Source: Prosopocoilus inquinatus (lineage: Eukaryota > Arthropoda > Insecta > Coleoptera > Lucanidae). Taken from it: 64,000 nt of DNA. A program made the translations under genes and the position numbers. The stretch is from positions 56,544,212 through 56,608,211 of the forward strand of contig CM069870.1 of NCBI GenBank assembly GCA_036172665.1, read 5' to 3'. Numbering within the stretch: position 1 is the first letter of the stretch; each line of letters opens with the position of its first letter. The notes beneath the pieces were generated by a model. That model did not search any database. It saw nothing but the letters and a program-made list of their open reading frames with translations, and had not been told where the DNA came from. Of this stretch, positions 12,015-42,548 are shown in pieces.

Positions 12015-13395
12015 TTTTATTATTATTTTTACTCAAAGATTTTATAGTTGGTTTTTATCCATTTTTCTAATTTTCTTTTGAAAAGAGGCAAGTAGAAGGT
12101 TCATCTGATATCAATGGGAAGCATGTTATAATATTGAGAACCTAGGTACAAAACATGTCTTTGTCCGTTTGAAGTATTACAGAAAGGAATTTTTAGATCC
12201 CGATGTCTGCAAGCTCCAGTAGTAAAATTATCATACTGCACAAAAGGAATTTTAGATTTATTCGAGTGTATACAAATAATTATAGCTTTTTTTTATGTAA
12301 TTGGTTAATAGTCAATACATTATATAAGTTGAACAATAGTTGGGATGAAAAAGTTCTGGGTTTATTTAAACAAATTTTTAAAATTAATTTCTGAGTTACC
12401 TCTAGATGTTCAATAATAGAGGTGTTTGTTGAACCCCATACTGATATTCCATAATGTAGACAGCTTTGAACTAATGCAAAATAAACTGTTCTTAGTAAAT
12501 TAATGTTACAGTAGTGCCTAATTTACCTGAAAATAAACAAGGTTTTTGTAATTTTGTTTACCAACTTCTGTATGTGAAGATGCCAACGTAGATTAGAGTC
12601 TATTAATAATCCTAAATATTTGGTATTATCAGAATATTTCAAAACTGTATTAGCGACATTGATTTTAGAGATAGAATCGAAGTTACAATTCTGAATACAA
12701 AAAGGTATAACAACAGTTTTATCTAAATTTAATTTTAATTTATAATCTAACCATTTCTTAATTTTATTTAAACCATCAGATGTTAATTTGGCGACAAATT
12801 CCCATGTATCAGATGTAGAAACTGTAGAGGTATCATCAGCAAATGCTGTAAAGCTACCTGGAATATTCAATGAAAATAAATCATTAACATATAGTAGGAA
12901 AAGAAGTGGCCCAAGTACCGTACCCTGTGGAACACCAGTTTTAACAATTCTTTCATTACTTACTGTATTACCTATTTCTTTATATTGTGTCCTATTGACA
13001 AGATAACATTTCAATAATTCTACAACTTTGTCTCTAAAGCCATAACACTGTAGTTTATCTAAAAGACGACCATGGGGCACTGTATCAAAAGTTTTTTTTA
13101 AATCAAGAAAAGCGCCTATTACTTTTTCTCCATCATCTAAAGATTGAGAAATATTCTGTGTTAAATTAAGACAGCATCATTACAACTCAGATTTTGACAA
13201 AATCAGAACTGGGAACAGGACAAAATCTTTAATGAAATTTAGCATTCTATTCTTCAAACATAATTTAGAAAAGAGTGATGTTAGAGAAATGGGTCTGTAG
13301 TTATTAAGAAGGGATTTGTCACCCGATTTAAAAATACGAATAGTAATAGAACGTTTGAGTTCATTAGGAAAAATACCTTGGTTCCTGTTGCCTAG
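12015..13395 (-). pseudogene. Non-LTR retrotransposon (Jockey/CR1-like) reverse transcriptase remnant
   Basis: Read on the minus strand from about 13390, consecutive reverse-transcriptase blocks appear: FPNELKRS then IFKSGDKSLLNNYRPISLTS, FLDLKKTFDTVPH (motif A, with its aspartate), TGVPQGTVLGPLLFLLYVND (motif B), FADDT (catalytic motif C), and TKYLGLLIDSNLRWHLHI. The longest open stretch is 12523-13080. Past it, other frames give HYGISVWGSTN and the C-terminal PFCNTSNGQRHVLYLGSQ region, ending near 12040. An A-rich tail with ATAATAATAA sits at about 12015. There is a frame break near 13175 and another near 12525. The N-terminal endonuclease is missing, so this is a 5'-truncated, dead copy with the catalytic core still readable. 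Confidence 0.9.
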
Positions 13396-18900: not shown

Positions 18901-19085
18901 TTTTCAGTTTACATTTCCGAGTGCCACAAATCAAAGACTTGTTTATAGAGCTTATCTCGTTTATAATATTACTTCTTATAGTTTCGTCTTTTACATTAAT
19001 TTAAAACTTCATATAGTACACAAGTTTAAAGAAACCTAGCCGAAGCAACTGAATTTTCGGTGACATAACTAATTTTTTAGTGAAC
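15970..19085. other. AT-rich noncoding DNA
   Basis: No supported gene over 3 kb. A short plus-strand frame at 16590-16660 has a CKIC..WY pattern resembling half of a zinc finger, but there is too little of it to call. The 17290-17530 part is richer in G+C. Otherwise I see nothing. Confidence 0.4.
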
Positions 19086-19087
19086 AG

Positions 19088-19185
19088 ATAAAACAGCGAC
19101 ATTTTACGGTCGCTTTTTGACCAGACATTGCAGTAGGATAGACAAAAAAAAAACGATTTGCAACAAAATTTTTTTATAATTTTTT
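19088..19185 (+). repeat. Fragment of the hammerhead foldback family
   Basis: ACATTGCAGTAGGATAGACA here is identical to a block in the left arm of the element at 22723-23383, and the AGCGACAT...TCGCTTTTTGACC text before it matches with a few changes. It is followed by AACGATTTGCA, which in the 22.7-kb element lies elsewhere and in the opposite arm, so this copy is rearranged. No hammerhead core is left. It shows that the 22.7-kb element belongs to a family. Confidence 0.6.
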
Positions 19186-19189
19186 TAGT

Positions 19190-20188
19190 GAAACTAATCT
19201 CTGCTTAGTTAGTCGAGGAAACAAAAATATGTTGTTCTTGGAATAAAGTAAAAATTACTAATTACTAAAAACTAATTTTGATATTTGTTAAGCATGAGAA
19301 AAGTAATGACAGCTTACAAAAAGGCACAAGTAACTAAATTTTTATTTTATACAACTAAACTACCTACAACTAATTTGTCTTATTTGTCACAAGCATAATG
19401 GAATTTCTAAAACGGTATTATGACTATAGACTAAAAAGTAAGTTGTAACAAAGCAAGTATAATTGAAATCGCCATGTAATTTTTAAGCGAATATTTGTAC
19501 AATGAATATTTCAAGAATTGTTTAATATAGATATTAAGTTTAAAATAATTTTGGAAGTTTCGATTCTACTTTATCTACAAATTAATAAACTTCTGTCTAA
19601 GTACGGATGTTTTATTCATTTCAAATTTCGTCTTCCTTAAAGTTGCTTATTTATTCATTGAAAATGGAAAACGTCACCCCTAGACGAAATTAAATTAAAT
19701 TCACCCAGCCAAAGTAGTAATTTCCGAAGATAACAACGCGCAATAATAGAATAATAAAATTTCCGGAGGAGTTCTGATTCCGGAGAATATCAACCGCGAT
19801 TCATTCTAAGGCCTGATCCGGAGTTTATTCGGTTTATCTTCGCGCGAAAATTTTCTCGTTCTGTTTTATTTGCGAGCTGTCAGATGCATTTCTTTCGTTT
19901 CATAATGTTCGGGAAAGGTTGGCGTTTCCGTCGACACGGGAAATGCATTTTCCATACTTTTGTATTAAAAATTGCATAAGCAATGGCAGATGATAAAAGA
20001 ATTTTATTATTCGCGACAGGTGCCTCTGAGAATTTCATACAAATTTAATTTGTTCACTTAGTTGACGTAAGTTTACTACGTGTTTTATTCTGTGAGTTAG
20101 TTTAGACGAGTTGAGTTTGAATAACTTGCTTGGTGGGGAAGTTTCAAAAGTTCTTCATTAGTCTTTTTAGCATCCAAGCTTAATTTTA
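19190..20188. other. Noncoding DNA, no supported feature
   Basis: AT-rich, except for a GC-richer block at about 19720-19960. No ORF with motifs and no inverted repeats were found. Confidence 0.4.
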
Positions 20189-22153: not shown

Positions 22154-22766
22154 CATTCGGTTTCGGTTTCGGCCGGTTTTGGCCAAAGTTAAGGTTTTGG
22201 CCAAGAAACACCAGAAACTGTATTCGGCGGACCTCAGCAGGAATAACAGGCGTTCGGCATTACCCGGTTTAACCTATGTCTGCTTGCATGCATTTTAGGG
22301 TGCATTATTACTGATGTAAAATAACGAATTAGGCTGGTAATATGATACGAAAAATTTGCTGATTACTTTAACGTTGTTATTAAAAGTGGAGTCAGTGCAG
22401 CGAATGTTTGTTAACATTTTCTTTTTTTGATTACATACATATTAATCTGAAGTTTTCGATATTTTTTCAGTGAATCATATTAAACTACATAGGGTGTTCA
22501 AATAAGAATAATAAATTTTAACAATAAAGGTTTAGTGAATTTAATGTTTCAAATTTAATCATAAAGTGAATTTTCTTTGCGGTAGGGGAAGAGACATTCC
22601 TAAAGTACAAAAGTTCTTGATTCTGATAAAATTCAATTTTAAAATGCACTTAGATGTTGCTGGCCGGACACCACTTATTATAGTGTGTCCACGGATTGTA
22701 TTCACTATAGGTAAAAGTTTTCAGAAAAATTTTTTGTGCAAATCGTTTTTGATTGCAGTGAGAACC

Positions 22767-22831
22767 TCGAGCAGCCTCTGGACAGCTGTTTCAGCCCTGC
22801 TTGGGGCTTCTTCAGCAGAAACGTAGCTCGA
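22767..22831 (-). ncRNA. Hammerhead ribozyme, copy 2 on minus strand
   Basis: On the minus strand: outer helix I strand TCGAGC (22831-22826), CTGAAGA (22815-22809), helix II AGCCC/GGGCT, GAAA (22792-22789), helix III from the palindrome ACAGCTGT, cleavage triplet GTC (22783-22781), CAG pairing with CTG next to the core, and GCTCGA (22772-22767) closing outer helix I. All invariant core positions are present. It lies 314 bp downstream, in transcript sense, of the ribozyme at 23081-23142. Confidence 0.85.
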
Positions 22832-23080
22832 CATTCCCACTGCAGACTAAAAACGACTTGCCCAATTTATTCGCAAATGCGATGTAAGAATGATGAACAT
22901 ATAAAATAGCGACATCTTACTATCGCTTTTTGACCTAACATTGCAGTAGGATAGACAAATTGAAGCGGGATTTGCTCCTAATGAGTCCCCCATGCAAGGC
23001 GGCCATGCTTGCTGTCAAAGCATAATGAAAGATTTTAGAAAAATTTTTTGTGCAAATCGTTTTTGATTGCAGTGAGAACC

Positions 23081-23142
23081 TCGAGCAGCCTCTGGACAGC
23101 TGTTTCAGCCCTGCTTGGGGCTTCTTCAGCAGAATGTCGAGC
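23081..23142 (-). ncRNA. Hammerhead ribozyme, copy 1 on minus strand
   Basis: The core is the same as in the copy at 22767-22831, with CTGAAGA at 23129-23123. Here the 5' flank runs into the foldback spacer, so the spacer is read in the opposite sense to the other copies. Because the spacer contains TCGA, an outer helix I (CTCGA with TCGAG) can still form. Together with copy 2 it defines a 314-nt monomer that self-cleavage could release. Confidence 0.8.
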
Positions 23143-23201
23143 TACGTTTCTGCTGAAGAAGCCCCAAGCAGGGCTGAAACAGCTGTCCAGAGGCTGCTCG
23201 A
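23137..23201 (+). ncRNA. Hammerhead ribozyme, plus-strand copy
   Basis: TCGAGC (23137-23142) pairs with GCTCGA (23196-23201) as outer helix I, and CTG/CAG forms inner helix I. The core CTGAAGA is at 23153-23159, helix II AGCCC (23160-23164) pairs with GGGCT (23171-23175), and GAAA is at 23176-23179. Helix III is the 4-bp palindrome ACAG/CTGT (23179-23186). The GTC triplet places the cut after 23187. All conserved hammerhead nucleotides are present, and the internal loop within helix I could give type I tertiary contacts. Confidence 0.85.
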
Positions 23202-23540
23202 GGTTCTCACTGCAATCAAAAACGATTTGCACAAAAAAATTTTCTAAAATCTTTCATTATGCTTTGACAGCAAGCATGGCCGCCTTGCATGGGGGACTCA
23301 TTAGGAGCAAATCCCGCTTCAATTTGTCTATCCTACTGCAATGTTAGGTCAAAAAGCGATAGTAAGATGTCGCTATTTTATATGTAAAAGTTTTCCATTT
23401 TTGAGATTTTGAAAAAAATATCGCTCTTCTTGATTATCTTAAAAGAACCAGAAACTTGATAGAAAAAAGAAAATAGTTAAAAAAATGAAAAATTCTGTGT
23501 TGACCTTTACAAAATAGAGCAGAGTTCAAAGCTTCTCTTA

Positions 23541-23669
23541 GGCCCGGTTTCGCCATCACAGTTTAACTTCAAGCTCTGTTTTATTCCTATAGAAACAATT
23601 ATCCTTGCAATTGTTACCATGGGAATAAAGCGAAGTTTAAAGTTAAACTGTGATGGTAAAATCGGGCCA
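23541..23669. mobile_element. TA-flanked MITE, 129 bp
   Basis: Left end: GGCCCGGTTTCGCCATCACA. Reverse complement of right end: TGGCCCGATTTTACCATCAC. The inverted match continues through AGTTTAACTT and into the centre, so the whole unit folds into a hairpin. It lies between TA at 23539-23540 and TA at 23670-23671. It is related to the MITE at 3151-3264 and inserted in the hAT element. Confidence 0.8.
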
Positions 23670-23724
23670 TAGTGAAAATCATGTCATGAATTAAAATTAG
23701 GTCTCACGATATAAAAAACATTAA

Positions 23725-24241: not shown

Positions 24242-25998
24242 ATGTCACAATATTCAGATTCATCGAAAGCCACTTGTAAAATGTGTAACAAATTATATTG
24301 TTTGGGCAGTCAAGAACGAAAAAGAAAACAGCCAGTACACAGTTTAAAACAGCATTTATCAATATTTCATGCTGTAGACAAGTTTTAAAACGACAATTAG
24401 AATTAAACGAGCAGAAAACTGAATCTAAGTTGAAAAAAACAGGTGTTAAAAATGCTAAACCCAACCTTGTGCAACTCACTATACCCGATTTGAAAGAAAA
24501 GGATGTGATGAAGCATTGGTTAGATAATCATGAAATTTCCCGTAGAACAGACAAGACTATTATGGACTTAATAATTGAAGATATGCTGCTATACACTTTA
24601 GTAGAAGAAGATGCTTTTGGATGTCTTAATTTAGCTACATGTAAATATAATTACAAATCTGAAAAATATTTTCGAACTTCATTGATGCCCCAAACCTATC
24701 AGAAGATAAAAGCTAAAGCACAGGGATTCATTCAGAAATATGAGTGGTTAAGTTGCACAACTGATGTTAATATGGATAAATCCATACAAATCGCATTCGC
24801 TACTCAGTTTTATAAGTTCACACAAAGATTAAAAGTAATATTGGGTGCTACTGTATTGGAACAAGAATATACAGGAGTGTATGTCTCCGAAAAGTTAACC
24901 GAAATCTTCAATGAGTGGAATATGTGATAGAATATTTCTGGTTATCCGAAACAACGCAGCAAATGGGTTGTGCCATGCGTATAGCACAGTTTGATTCATT
25001 GGGCTAGGTGGCTCACACACTGCAACTAAATACTTGCCTTATTTAGCGAAGAACGTATCGAGACCGTCATAAAAAGTTGCAGAGAAATAGTTGGACATTT
25101 TCGGCGAAGCGAACAAGCAACTAGAAAATTGGCAGACTGTCAGAAGCAGTATACTCTGCCAACTCATTTTTTATTACAAGATATTTAAGTTAGATGGAAT
25201 AGCACGTACCTGATGCTGCACTGACCGTCAGAAAAAACAAGGGCAGTTAATCTGTATAGTCTTCCGCACGGAGGCATACACACACTGTCAACCACTGATT
25301 GGGACCTTATAAAACACATCATGAATGTATTGAGATTCTTCTATGAAGCAACACTAGATTTGTCTTTTGAGGATGCTTGTGTTTCTATAATAATATTGTT
25401 GCGTTATTCAATCGGAAATTGCAGAATCAAGATGAGGACGAAAATGAAGAGGTAACACACATGAAAAAATAATTACTTATCTGCTTTAATAAAAGATTTG
25501 CTTTCATGAAAAGCCAACTTGCACTGATCACCATTTTACTTGATTCGAGATACAAATCAAAATGTCTAACATCTGATGAAGTAGATATCAGAATAAGTAA
25601 AAGAAATATTACATTTTATAAATGTACAGCAAACTAAAGGTGAAGTTGTGGAAAATATTCCCATGCAAGTTTCTTCGTCACAACAAGCAAAGCATAAAGA
25701 GCCAAAAGAACAAGAGGGATTATGGGATTCTTATGATATTGATAATTCCCTTAAACACATTCATGGATTAAATGAGAAAGAATCTGTACTGGAGCAAATC
25801 ATTCGTTGTTAGTTGGCAGAACTTTGTCTACAGAGAAATTCCAATGTATTCGAGTACTGGTACTTCAATCCATAAAAGCGTTGCTAACGAGAAATTACCT
25901 TATTTAGTGTTGCTGGTCAAATTTTCATAGATCGCAGAAGCAATTTGTTGGGACAAAATGCAGAAAAGCTATTGTTTTTGTCTTATAAGATTGTTTAA
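24242..25998 (+). pseudogene. hAT transposase with BED zinc finger, disrupted
   Basis: Starting at ATG 24242, the frame reads a BED finger: ATCKMCNKLYCLGSQ then LKQHLSIFHA (C-x2-C and H-x4-H). It breaks near 24383 and resumes in the frame of the 24298-24927 ORF with DLIIEDMLLYTLVEEDAFGC, KYFRTSLMPQTYQKIKAKA and WLSCTTD, whose D is the expected first catalytic aspartate. After a stop at 24925, other frames give VIRNNAANG (the RDN aspartate changed to N) and RIAQFDSLG, IVGHFRRSEQATRKL and VRWNSTYLML. The hAT dimerisation block LFSVAGQIFIDRRSNLLGQN followed by AEKLLFL ends at TAA 25996-25998. The order matches ZBED/Ac-like hAT transposases. Multiple frameshifts, stops and the lost aspartate make it non-functional. 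Confidence 0.9.
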
Positions 25999-41206: not shown

Positions 41207-41220
41207 TTAATCAAACCGAG
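41207..41220. repeat. Target-site duplication, left copy
   Basis: TTAATCAAACCGAG, identical to 42535-42548, flanks the palindromic Penelope insertion. Confidence 0.85.
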
Positions 41221-41287
41221 AATCACAAAGCAACACAAAACCTGTGGCTGTAATCCAAATAAATAGTGAGAAAACCCCTCGACCACA

Positions 41288-41356
41288 TTAATTCACTGAA
41301 AGCGAATACGTATTTCGGTAACGAAGTTACCATCTTCAGCGCAAAACTGATATTAA
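41288..41356 (-). ncRNA. Hammerhead ribozyme in left PLE arm
   Basis: Mirror image of the copy at 42441-42509. On the minus strand, CTGAAGA is at 41339-41333 and GAAA at 41316-41313. Helix II is GGTAAC/GTTACC with a UUC loop, and outer helix I uses TTAAT at 41356-41352 with ATTAA at 41292-41288. Same caveats as for the right copy. Confidence 0.75.
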
Positions 41357-41459
41357 ACTTTAAAACAACAAATAAACTAAACTAGACTAGCCGCACTCCC
41401 CCCCTCACTTTCTTTGTACCGTATTATGCATGCAAAGCAAACCGGGATTCTTCGAAAAT

Positions 41460-41871
41460 CTAAAGGTCGAAGAGGCAAGAAGCGGTCGGCCCGGACTTCT
41501 CAAAATTCATTAATCTATTCCTATTTTTGTGAATCTCCAAGCTTTCGAAAGAATCTAGGTTTGTTTTGTTATTAATTTGTTTGATTAAATCTATTTTATT
41601 TACCGAATGATTGTTTTCAAGCATGTGTAAGGCAACACTGGATTTATCAAAGCGTTTGTATTTTAAATGAGCCAAGTGTTCTTTGAATCTAATTTTTAAG
41701 GATCTTTTTGTTTGCCCTACATAAATTTGATCACAATTTTTACAACTAATTTTATATATACCTGATTTATCCTCCGAATCTACTTTATCTTTTGGATTTC
41801 CCAGCAACGATTTTAAGCTTAAAATCTTAAAATCTACTTTATCTTTTGGATTTCCCAGCAACGATTTTAAG
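41460..41871 (-). CDS. PLE GIY-YIG endonuclease, left arm, 5'-truncated
   Basis: Read from the palindrome centre, the frame has two copies of the 18-residue unit around LKSLLGNPKDKVD, then the same GIY-YIG domain as the plus-strand copy: GIYKISCKNCDQIYVGQT, RFKEHLAHLK, VALHMLENNHS and SLEIHKNRNRLMN, ending at 41460. No true start codon is expected because the copy is 5'-truncated at the centre. An apparent N-terminal DFPAT is just the opposite arm read through the palindrome. It differs from the plus copy only by lacking one repeat unit. Confidence 0.8.
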
Positions 41872-42018
41872 CTTAAAATCGTTGCTGGGAAATCCAAAAG
41901 ATAAAGTAGATTTTAAGATTTTAAGCTTAAAATCGTTGCTGGGAAATCCAAAAGATAAAGTAGATTTTAAGATTTTAAGCTTAAAATCGTTGCTGGGAAA
42001 TCCAAAAGATAAAGTAGA
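41786..42018. repeat. 54-bp in-frame tandem repeats at the palindrome centre
   Basis: A 54-bp unit encoding 18 residues (around ILSLKSLLGNPKDKVD) occurs twice in the left arm and three times in the right arm, just before the GIY-YIG domain. The unit contains the palindrome TTTTAAGCTTAAAA, and one of these forms the exact centre of the inverted repeat. That makes microhomology or template switching at this palindrome a natural way for the two copies to have been joined. Confidence 0.85.
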
Positions 42019-42337
42019 TTCGGAGGATAAATCAGGTATATATAAAATTAGTTGTAAAAATTGTGATCAAATTTATGTAGGGCAAACAAAAAGATCCTTA
42101 AAAATTAGATTCAAAGAACACTTGGCTCATTTAAAATACAAACGCTTTGATAAATCCAGTGTTGCCTTACACATGCTTGAAAACAATCATTCGGTAAATA
42201 AAATAGATTTAATCAAACAAATTAATAACAAAACAAACCTAGATTCTTTCGAAAGCTTGGAGATTCACAAAAATAGGAATAGATTAATGAATTTTGAGAA
42301 GTCCGGGCCGACCGCTTCTTGCCTCTTCGACCTTTAG
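41872..42337 (+). CDS. PLE GIY-YIG endonuclease, right arm, 5'-truncated
   Basis: After three 18-residue repeats, the frame has GIYKISCKNCDQIYVGQT (GIY starting at 42035, then YVG), RSLKIRFKEHLAHLK with the expected Arg and His, VALHMLENNHS, and FESLEIHKNRNRLMN with the conserved Glu and Asn. It stops at 42335-42337. CKNC together with the histidines of LHMLENNH fits the CCHH zinc site that marks PLE endonucleases. In an intact PLE this domain follows the reverse transcriptase in one ORF and nicks the target DNA. The frame here is clean, with no stop or shift, so the copy is young, but with no RT and no start codon it is a fragment. The hammerhead lies 104 bp downstream. Confidence 0.85.
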
Positions 42338-42440
42338 ATTTTCGAAGAATCCCGGTTTGCTTTGCATGCATAATACGGTACAAAGAAAGTGAGGGGGGGA
42401 GTGCGGCTAGTCTAGTTTAGTTTATTTGTTGTTTTAAAGT

Positions 42441-42509
42441 TTAATATCAGTTTTGCGCTGAAGATGGTAACTTCGTTACCGAAATACGTATTCGCTTTCA
42501 GTGAATTAA
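42441..42509 (+). ncRNA. Hammerhead ribozyme in right PLE arm
   Basis: Core CTGAAGA (42458-42464), helix II GGTAAC/GTTACC (42466-42480) with a UUC loop, GAAA (42481-42484), helix III from the palindrome ATACGTAT (42484-42491), and a predicted cut after U at 42492. Inner helix I is GCG/CGC (42455-42457 with 42493-42495). Outer helix I is TTAAT plus TCA pairing with TGA plus ATTAA (42502-42509), with one bulged A. Two departures from the ideal are one unpaired U before helix II and a U rather than C at the cleavage position. The tiny palindromic helix III suggests action as a dimer. Confidence 0.75.
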
Positions 42510-42534
42510 TGTGGTCGAGGGGTTTTCTCACTAT

Positions 42535-42548
42535 TTAATCAAACCGAG
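42535..42548. repeat. Target-site duplication, right copy
   Basis: TTAATCAAACCGAG, identical to 41207-41220. The first two bases also continue the palindrome arm, so the exact border is uncertain by 2 bp. Confidence 0.85.

Follow-up and report, generated by a model that had tools for sequence, protein, structure and literature searches.

Head-to-head retrozyme insertions with two fixed ends in Prosopocoilus inquinatus and their probable mobilisation by Penelope-like enzymes

Metazoan non-LTR retrozymes, as described in PMC7229834, are tandem arrays of low-GC units of about 170-400 nt with type I hammerhead ribozymes; they have target-site duplications (TSDs) of more than 4 bp and a self-paired circular RNA, and coexist with Penelope-like elements (PLEs). 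No PBS or PPT is reported for them in the part of that paper considered here. PLEs have been named strong or likely candidates as movers of animal retrozymes, a candidacy that rests on shared ribozymes, tandem form and co-occurrence (PMC7229834, PMC7761336). PLEs themselves form head-to-head inserts with short TSDs from two internal reverse transcription start sites, carry a hammerhead near these starts, and cut and extend both strands (PMC3846280, PMC11167929). In the Penelope elements of Adineta vaga, head-to-head is the most frequently observed arrangement, and a tail is optional on one inverted pLTR (PMC3846280). For PAc of Anolis, reverse transcription starts at two internal sites, one at each end of the tail, and the protein was found to cut and extend both strands in vitro (PMC11167929). 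Plant LTR retrozymes combine paired type III hammerheads, circular RNA and the lack of an ORF with LTRs, a PBS and PPT, and a 4-bp TSD (PMC4918200).

We analysed a stretch of 64,000 nt of the genome of Prosopocoilus inquinatus, hereafter the window, in which a 661-bp insert is enclosed by two perfect 12-bp copies of GTAAAAGTTTTC (Table 1). Among 4000 random position pairs 661 bp apart, none showed a flanking repeat of at least 11 bp, compared with the 12 bp observed at the insert, which bears out the duplication claimed in the original prediction. Two ribozymes had also been described as direct repeats 314 bp apart, and within the insert all 98 of 98 nt are identical at this spacing. The inverted arms are likewise present, at a length of 238 nt with one mismatch instead of the predicted 236 bp (the repeat listing rounds their identity to 100%), and the arms meet at a 3-nt GAA microhomology, read by eye. 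No ORF of at least 150 aa overlaps the insert, its one stop-to-stop frame (23039-23347) having 102 aa.

The insert fits a metazoan non-LTR retrozyme, with a repeat unit inside the range of 150-450 bp and a low GC content. It shares with the elements of PMC7229834 the type I hammerhead, the tandem unit, a TSD longer than 4 bp and coexistence with PLEs, and its RNA would, as a circle, be highly self-paired; unlike the tandem arrays of that paper, insertions here are mostly head-to-head and begin at two fixed sites. Cervera and de la Pena (2020, PMC7229834) use neither 'inverted' nor 'head-to-head' in their main text. With the plant LTR retrozymes, the insert has in common paired hammerheads, a probable circular RNA and the absence of an ORF; the type I alignment and the TSD of about 12 bp place it outside that group. 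The retrozyme also has no ORF with RT and GIY-YIG domains; it inserts like a PLE without being one. Further differences from PLEs are its presumably circular template and the distance of 138 nt between its two start sites, A and B.

Table 1. Positions of the retrozyme copies, the Penelope-like element and neighbouring features in the window.
Feature	Positions	Strand	Basis or remark
Frame with RVT_1 domain, taken for a non-LTR element	12523..13176		
Left TSD of second, older retrozyme copy	19070..19084	.	sequence; one T shorter than right TSD
Second, older retrozyme copy, 92-bp head-to-head relative, pieces 84-92% identical	19085..19176	.	monomer mapping; same A/B outer ends
Right TSD of second, older copy	19177..19192	.	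sequence
Left TSD of retrozyme insert	22711..22722	.	sequence and chance test
Retrozyme insert	22723..23383		
Left segment, 412 nt, 1.31 units of the 314-nt monomer	22723..23134	- (ribozyme sense)	outer end is start site A (m58)
Hammerhead core 1, complete, helix I within 22766-22834	22781..22815	-	pattern, descriptor and RF00163 alignment
314-nt monomer between two predicted cut sites, GC 42.7%	22781..23094	-	computed
Inverted arms	22897..23134 / 23148..23385		
Hammerhead core 2, truncated	23095..23129	-	pattern and descriptor
Right segment, 249 nt	23135..23383	+ (ribozyme sense)	outer end is start site B (m196)
13-nt centre, part of right (sense) segment	23135..23147	+	sequence
Hammerhead core 3, complete, helix I included 23135-23202	23153..23187	+	pattern and descriptor
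Right TSD of retrozyme insert	23384..23395	.	sequence and chance test
Imperfect MITE-like palindrome, 144 bp	23533..23676		138 bp from retrozyme
212-aa frame, presumably hAT/ZBED-like	24289..24927		
PLE left TSD (TTAATCAAACCGAG)	41207..41220	.	sequence
PLE 'tail', left arm only, 39 nt	41221..41259	-	sequence; start site 2
PLE fragment, GIY-YIG endonuclease, head-to-head foldback, 621-nt arms	41260..42537	.	domain and repeat listing
Presumed minimal hammerhead-like motif of PLE, mirrored copy	41305..41339	-	
54-nt tandem repeats at PLE foldback centre	41777..42020		
Presumed minimal hammerhead-like motif of PLE	42458..42492	+	
PLE right TSD	42535..42548	.	sequence

All three ribozyme cores read CTGAAGA...GAAACAGCTGTC, a pattern absent from 100 shuffles. 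A generic hammerhead descriptor returned the same three cores as its sole matches in the window (shuffles gave a mean of 0.003 each over 300 shuffles), and no match was obtained among the 300 shuffles when helix I was required. In the middle ribozyme, outer helix I has lost its 5' strand where the segments join (23134/23135), and thus, of the three hammerheads originally predicted, all stand as cores and only two are complete. At the curated (gathering) thresholds of Rfam, no family matched in the window. Hammerhead_1 (RF00163) reached 23.8 bits against a threshold of 34, with the core bases aligned and an E-value of 4e-4, on a 101-nt stretch chosen by the analyst; in a 901-base search, the best ribozyme match was Hammerhead_HH9 (14.5 bits, E 2.5). 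The covariance search proposed with the prediction therefore gave no match above threshold. Since its best sub-threshold match, on the chosen stretch, is to the right family, this absence counts only weakly against the ribozymes. Several Rfam miRNA families matched the palindrome, all below their thresholds, and a miRNA precursor was rejected. The core pattern had no match in viral_contigs.

Cleavage of the minus-strand RNA at both GUC sites would release a 314-nt RNA. The corresponding circle has a predicted folding energy of -107.3 kcal/mol, versus -74.7 +/- 5.4 kcal/mol for shuffles, none of 200 being as low. For a monomer, the hammerhead fold (-16.5 kcal/mol) is about 11 kcal/mol less stable than a misfold (-27.6 kcal/mol). 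The best fold of two hammerhead copies reaches -59.1 kcal/mol, twice the monomer being -55.2 kcal/mol, and this predicted dimer, read by eye, is a double hammerhead joined by a ACAGCUGU helix III; only the dimer takes the hammerhead shape. A short helix III and action as a dimer are described for amphibian retrozymes (PMC7229834).

The genome (650 Mb, 173 contigs) was searched with a 418-base query, and the best 40 of 764 candidates were scored, yielding at least 93 matches to the retrozyme, with identities of 98-100% for the full-length ones. Every cluster among the matches listed was taken into the insertion set, which added 38 loci to that of the window; L033 repeats L032, with the same ends and the same TSD reversed, and its removal left 38 distinct insertions including that of the window. 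As best-scoring candidates, these favour young and long copies. Older fragments were excluded from the count (L036a, L039b, the first L057 piece, and pieces in L038, L046, L070 and L074).

Mapping onto the monomer revealed that 31 of these 38 best-scoring insertions are head-to-head with a TSD of 11-18 bp (12-13 bp in 25 of the 31). In each of the 31, the two outer ends comprise one at site A and one at site B, the B end of L036b being assigned by eye, and inclusion of the older window copy brings the count to 32/32. Site A lies at monomer positions 54-65 and site B at 196-201; the A ends of L046 and L048, at 76 and 74, were read as stutters at A. The end table of 32 rows contains 17 A-left and 14 B-left insertions plus L036b, and if the ends were chosen independently, 31 mixed pairs out of 31 would have a probability near 5e-10. 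Some entries were settled manually: L036b was scored 'A?' by the script and B by sequence, its TSD match (22 bp, 1 mismatch) running into an older neighbour, for L052 the monomer coordinate on the left was entered manually and verified against the sequence, and end and junction coordinates were hand-copied. The TSDs of L042 and L063 lie in simple sequence, and those of L039a and L042 have one mismatch each.

The remaining seven insertions depart from the full pattern of head-to-head form, TSD and A plus B ends. L075 has one orientation, starting from B, with a TSD of 11. L064, L074 and L076 also have one orientation, L044 pairs A with A, and L053 and L073 are head-to-head; a TSD was looked for in these six and none was found. 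Even so, each of the seven has one or both ends near A or B, the right end of L073 lying 12 nt beyond B. In L036a, an older nested copy, both ends are B ends, and no TSD was found.

These results support the identity of the element as a retrozyme, its 314-nt unit and its mobilisation with target duplication, and the ends of the window insert recur in 30 other insertions and in the older window copy. The foldback, regarded in the original prediction as a non-standard retrozyme form, is the usual form of insertion in this family. It had further been proposed that the element is mobilised as a foldback; instead, the foldback resembles what two reverse transcriptions, each begun at its own fixed RNA site, would produce, as in PLEs.

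Junctions and cDNA lengths were derived from the 24 loci of the 31 that could be cleanly parsed (L035, L036b, L039a, L040, L052, L061 and L069 being left out). The cDNAs measure 18 to 2660 nt, and 36 of 48 are longer than one unit. Those starting at A and at B have similar lengths (medians 526 vs 606, p 0.83). The positions at which the two arms meet are unrelated, lying within 20 nt of each other in 4 of 24 loci where 3.1 are expected by chance, and no junction is common to any two loci. At the B junction, microhomology of at least 1 nt was found in 29 of 30 insertions, with a mean of 1.83 vs 0.60 after permutation (0/2000), a difference inflated by the ambiguity of the TSD boundary and only suggestive; the small window copy and L036b were left out of this set.

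The window also contains a PLE fragment in the form of a head-to-head foldback with a TSD of 14 bp, and among the inverted repeats listed for the window, none but this PLE and the retrozyme is near-perfect over more than 200 bp. A protein search with its endonuclease piece returned 15 relatives, the best at 51% identity. Near both outer ends lies what we take, in the light of PMC7761336 and PMC11167929, to be a minimal hammerhead-like motif; it has no ribozyme match in Rfam and is missed by the generic hammerhead descriptor. This PLE is abundant, and its copies are nearly identical: scoring of the best 40 of 1143 candidates gave at least 47 matches, 45 of the 47 being 99-100% identical. Twelve opposite-facing pairs, the window included, were present among the matches listed, and all were read; this choice selects for the head-to-head form and not for the tail rule. 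Eleven of the twelve have an 11-14-bp TSD, and each of these eleven has exactly one arm that ends at site 1 and one that extends through the tail as far as site 2. The remaining pair, L080, has two tails and no TSD. The Penelope type of insertion is thus found in 31/38 retrozyme insertions and in 11/12 PLE pairs, and the rule of one start site of each kind is common to the retrozyme and the PLE of this genome. The retrozyme and the 3' region of the PLE share no sequence beyond the level of shuffles, 380 of 500 shuffles scoring as high.

That the PLE of the window inserts by the same rule suggests both the mover of the retrozyme and its manner of insertion. We consider it likely that PLE enzymes mobilise the retrozyme by reverse transcription of a circular RNA, on both DNA strands and from two sites. 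Multimeric transcripts of the ribozyme strand would be cut by the hammerheads into 314-nt RNAs, which would then be closed into circles. A Penelope-like enzyme would open AT-rich DNA by a staggered cut with an offset of about 12 bp. Both DNA 3' ends would serve as primers on ribozyme-sense RNA, A being the starting site for one and B for the other, and the resulting cDNAs would run round the circle for variable lengths. Joining of the two cDNA ends would give a head-to-head insert with target duplication. The outer ends would then be the beginnings of the cDNAs, both copied from ribozyme-sense RNA. The observed structure comprises the head-to-head form, fixed A and B ends with one of each per insertion, the TSD, and units that are largely shared; from it, we infer the activity of the ribozymes, the RNA circle and the PLE protein as agent. 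Another PLE family of this genome could be the partner of the retrozyme. In the predicted circle, A and B both fall in the sole two unpaired runs of at least 8 nt, which was noticed after folding and is in keeping with the proposal. Counting against it, unpairing at site B is only partial (0.30-0.96 within 3 nt) in a partition function of the linear form; further points against it are the less stable hammerhead fold of the monomer, the absence of sequence shared with the PLE 3' region, the variants described below that occur in some units only, the seven insertions outside the full pattern and the PLE pair L080.

More tentatively, a single PLE complex may hold one circle with two single-stranded windows, each DNA end being committed to a different one, so that two opposed rolling-circle reverse transcriptions follow; PLEs and retrozymes might then share a 'one of each' pathway unlike the TPRT of LINEs and the integration of LTR elements. 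We give this extension slightly less than an even chance.

It is less likely that the same enzyme and rule operate on a long multimeric transcript or on two RNA molecules instead of one circle. Wrap-around cDNAs would also be expected from a multimer. Sequence variants were compared among the units (substitutions only, positions 40-60 excluded, 35 loci). Twenty-two variants are present in every unit covered, as would be expected if one monomer circle had been copied; in 14 of the 22, both arms are covered, and five of these 14 are confined to one insertion each. For example, 149C>T of L072 occurs in 9/9 and 1/1 units, and 76T>C of L069 in 3/3 and 4/4. A further 13 variants occur in some units only, and in L037 a variant typical of other insertions is present in one of two units; these cases speak against a strictly single template and fit a multimer or two RNAs. 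Another 147 variants are found in one unit, many of which look by eye like edge or rod misalignments. A first test of arm agreement was unconvincing, with 42 of 133 within-locus comparisons discordant (32%) vs 40% of those between loci, four of the six sites used being gaps in the poly-A/poly-T tract, whose placement is strand-dependent.

It seems improbable that a LINE-type enzyme moved the retrozyme and that the inversion is ordinary L1-like twin priming, although the window contains a frame with an RVT_1 domain, which we take for a non-LTR element. L1 twin priming leaves one fixed end and one variable internal end. In contrast, all 32 inserts of head-to-head form that carry a TSD have two fixed ends, and the inverted form predominates; moreover, the retrozyme ends are not poly-A, and the PLE of the genome follows the same rule. 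The similarity to L1 inversions consists of two primings on one RNA, a TSD and an inverted segment (described in part in PMC2837659), and the 15-bp TSDs of Nematostella repeats have been likened to those of LINEs (PMC4918200).

The three other explanations were rejected on the evidence of junctions, ends, TSDs and flanks. Snapback self-priming of a single cDNA has been proposed for the Penelope palindromes of Adineta vaga, on an antisense template (PMC3846280), and could generate a head-to-head form here too; we regard it as very improbable. The close junctions that it leads one to expect, which include that of the window, are no more frequent than by chance, and the unrelated junction positions of the two arms argue against it as a general cause. 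In the window insert, the left arm continues in register for 174 nt past the end of the right arm and the spacer is part of the right segment, which snapback does not explain, as it cannot copy sequence absent from the first cDNA. Recurrent ends and target duplications would also be expected if the foldback itself were mobile, be it a DNA transposon or a foldback element whose ends are fixed, but these ends are not inverted repeats of each other, the TSD varies from 11 to 18 bp, and the variable cDNA lengths and private junctions of the 24 parsed loci make this reading more doubtful still. Long near-perfect palindromes such as this insert can be read artefacts, but an assembly artefact from chimeric reads is scarcely credible for 31 loci with different flanks, each with its own TSD, which read artefacts are not expected to produce.

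The element itself fits known metazoan retrozymes. Its insertion rule, the connection with PLEs and the template evidence are apparently new, and no report of a head-to-head insertion rule for retrozymes was found among the open PMC papers listed. The findings bear on the question of which enzyme moves animal retrozymes, and argue against self-priming as the origin of the head-to-head inserts of this one. The one-of-each rule and the duplication of about 12 bp form a structural signature common to the PLE and the retrozyme, which makes the link directly testable. With 314 nt and two mapped start sites, the retrozyme also offers a small model RNA for research on PLEs.

Several minor features were observed. 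In 10 of the 11 PLE pairs, it is the left arm that bears the tail, although contig orientation should be random. The centre of the PLE foldback contains 54-nt tandem repeats, which are in frame with the endonuclease ORF and have the look of template slippage. Near the retrozyme lie the MITE-like palindrome and the 212-aa frame, which to us recalls a hAT/ZBED-type transposase and has no Pfam match. The poly-A/poly-T tract beside site A (monomer nt 46-57) differs in length among many insertions, and between the two arms of the window insert, in a manner resembling slippage at the start of synthesis. At the right ends of L046 and L048, a second copy of the A/T tract follows the A end before the TSD, as if reverse transcription had restarted at A. 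L032 and L033 represent the same insertion on contigs C6 and C15 with unequal array lengths, either a haplotig or a duplication with loss or gain of units. Finally, new retrozyme inserts adjoin older ones, as if old ends were attractive (L036, 909-3095; L057, 955-2254; L039, 1191-2156), with L036b sitting at the end of L036a and L057b beside an A-end fragment.
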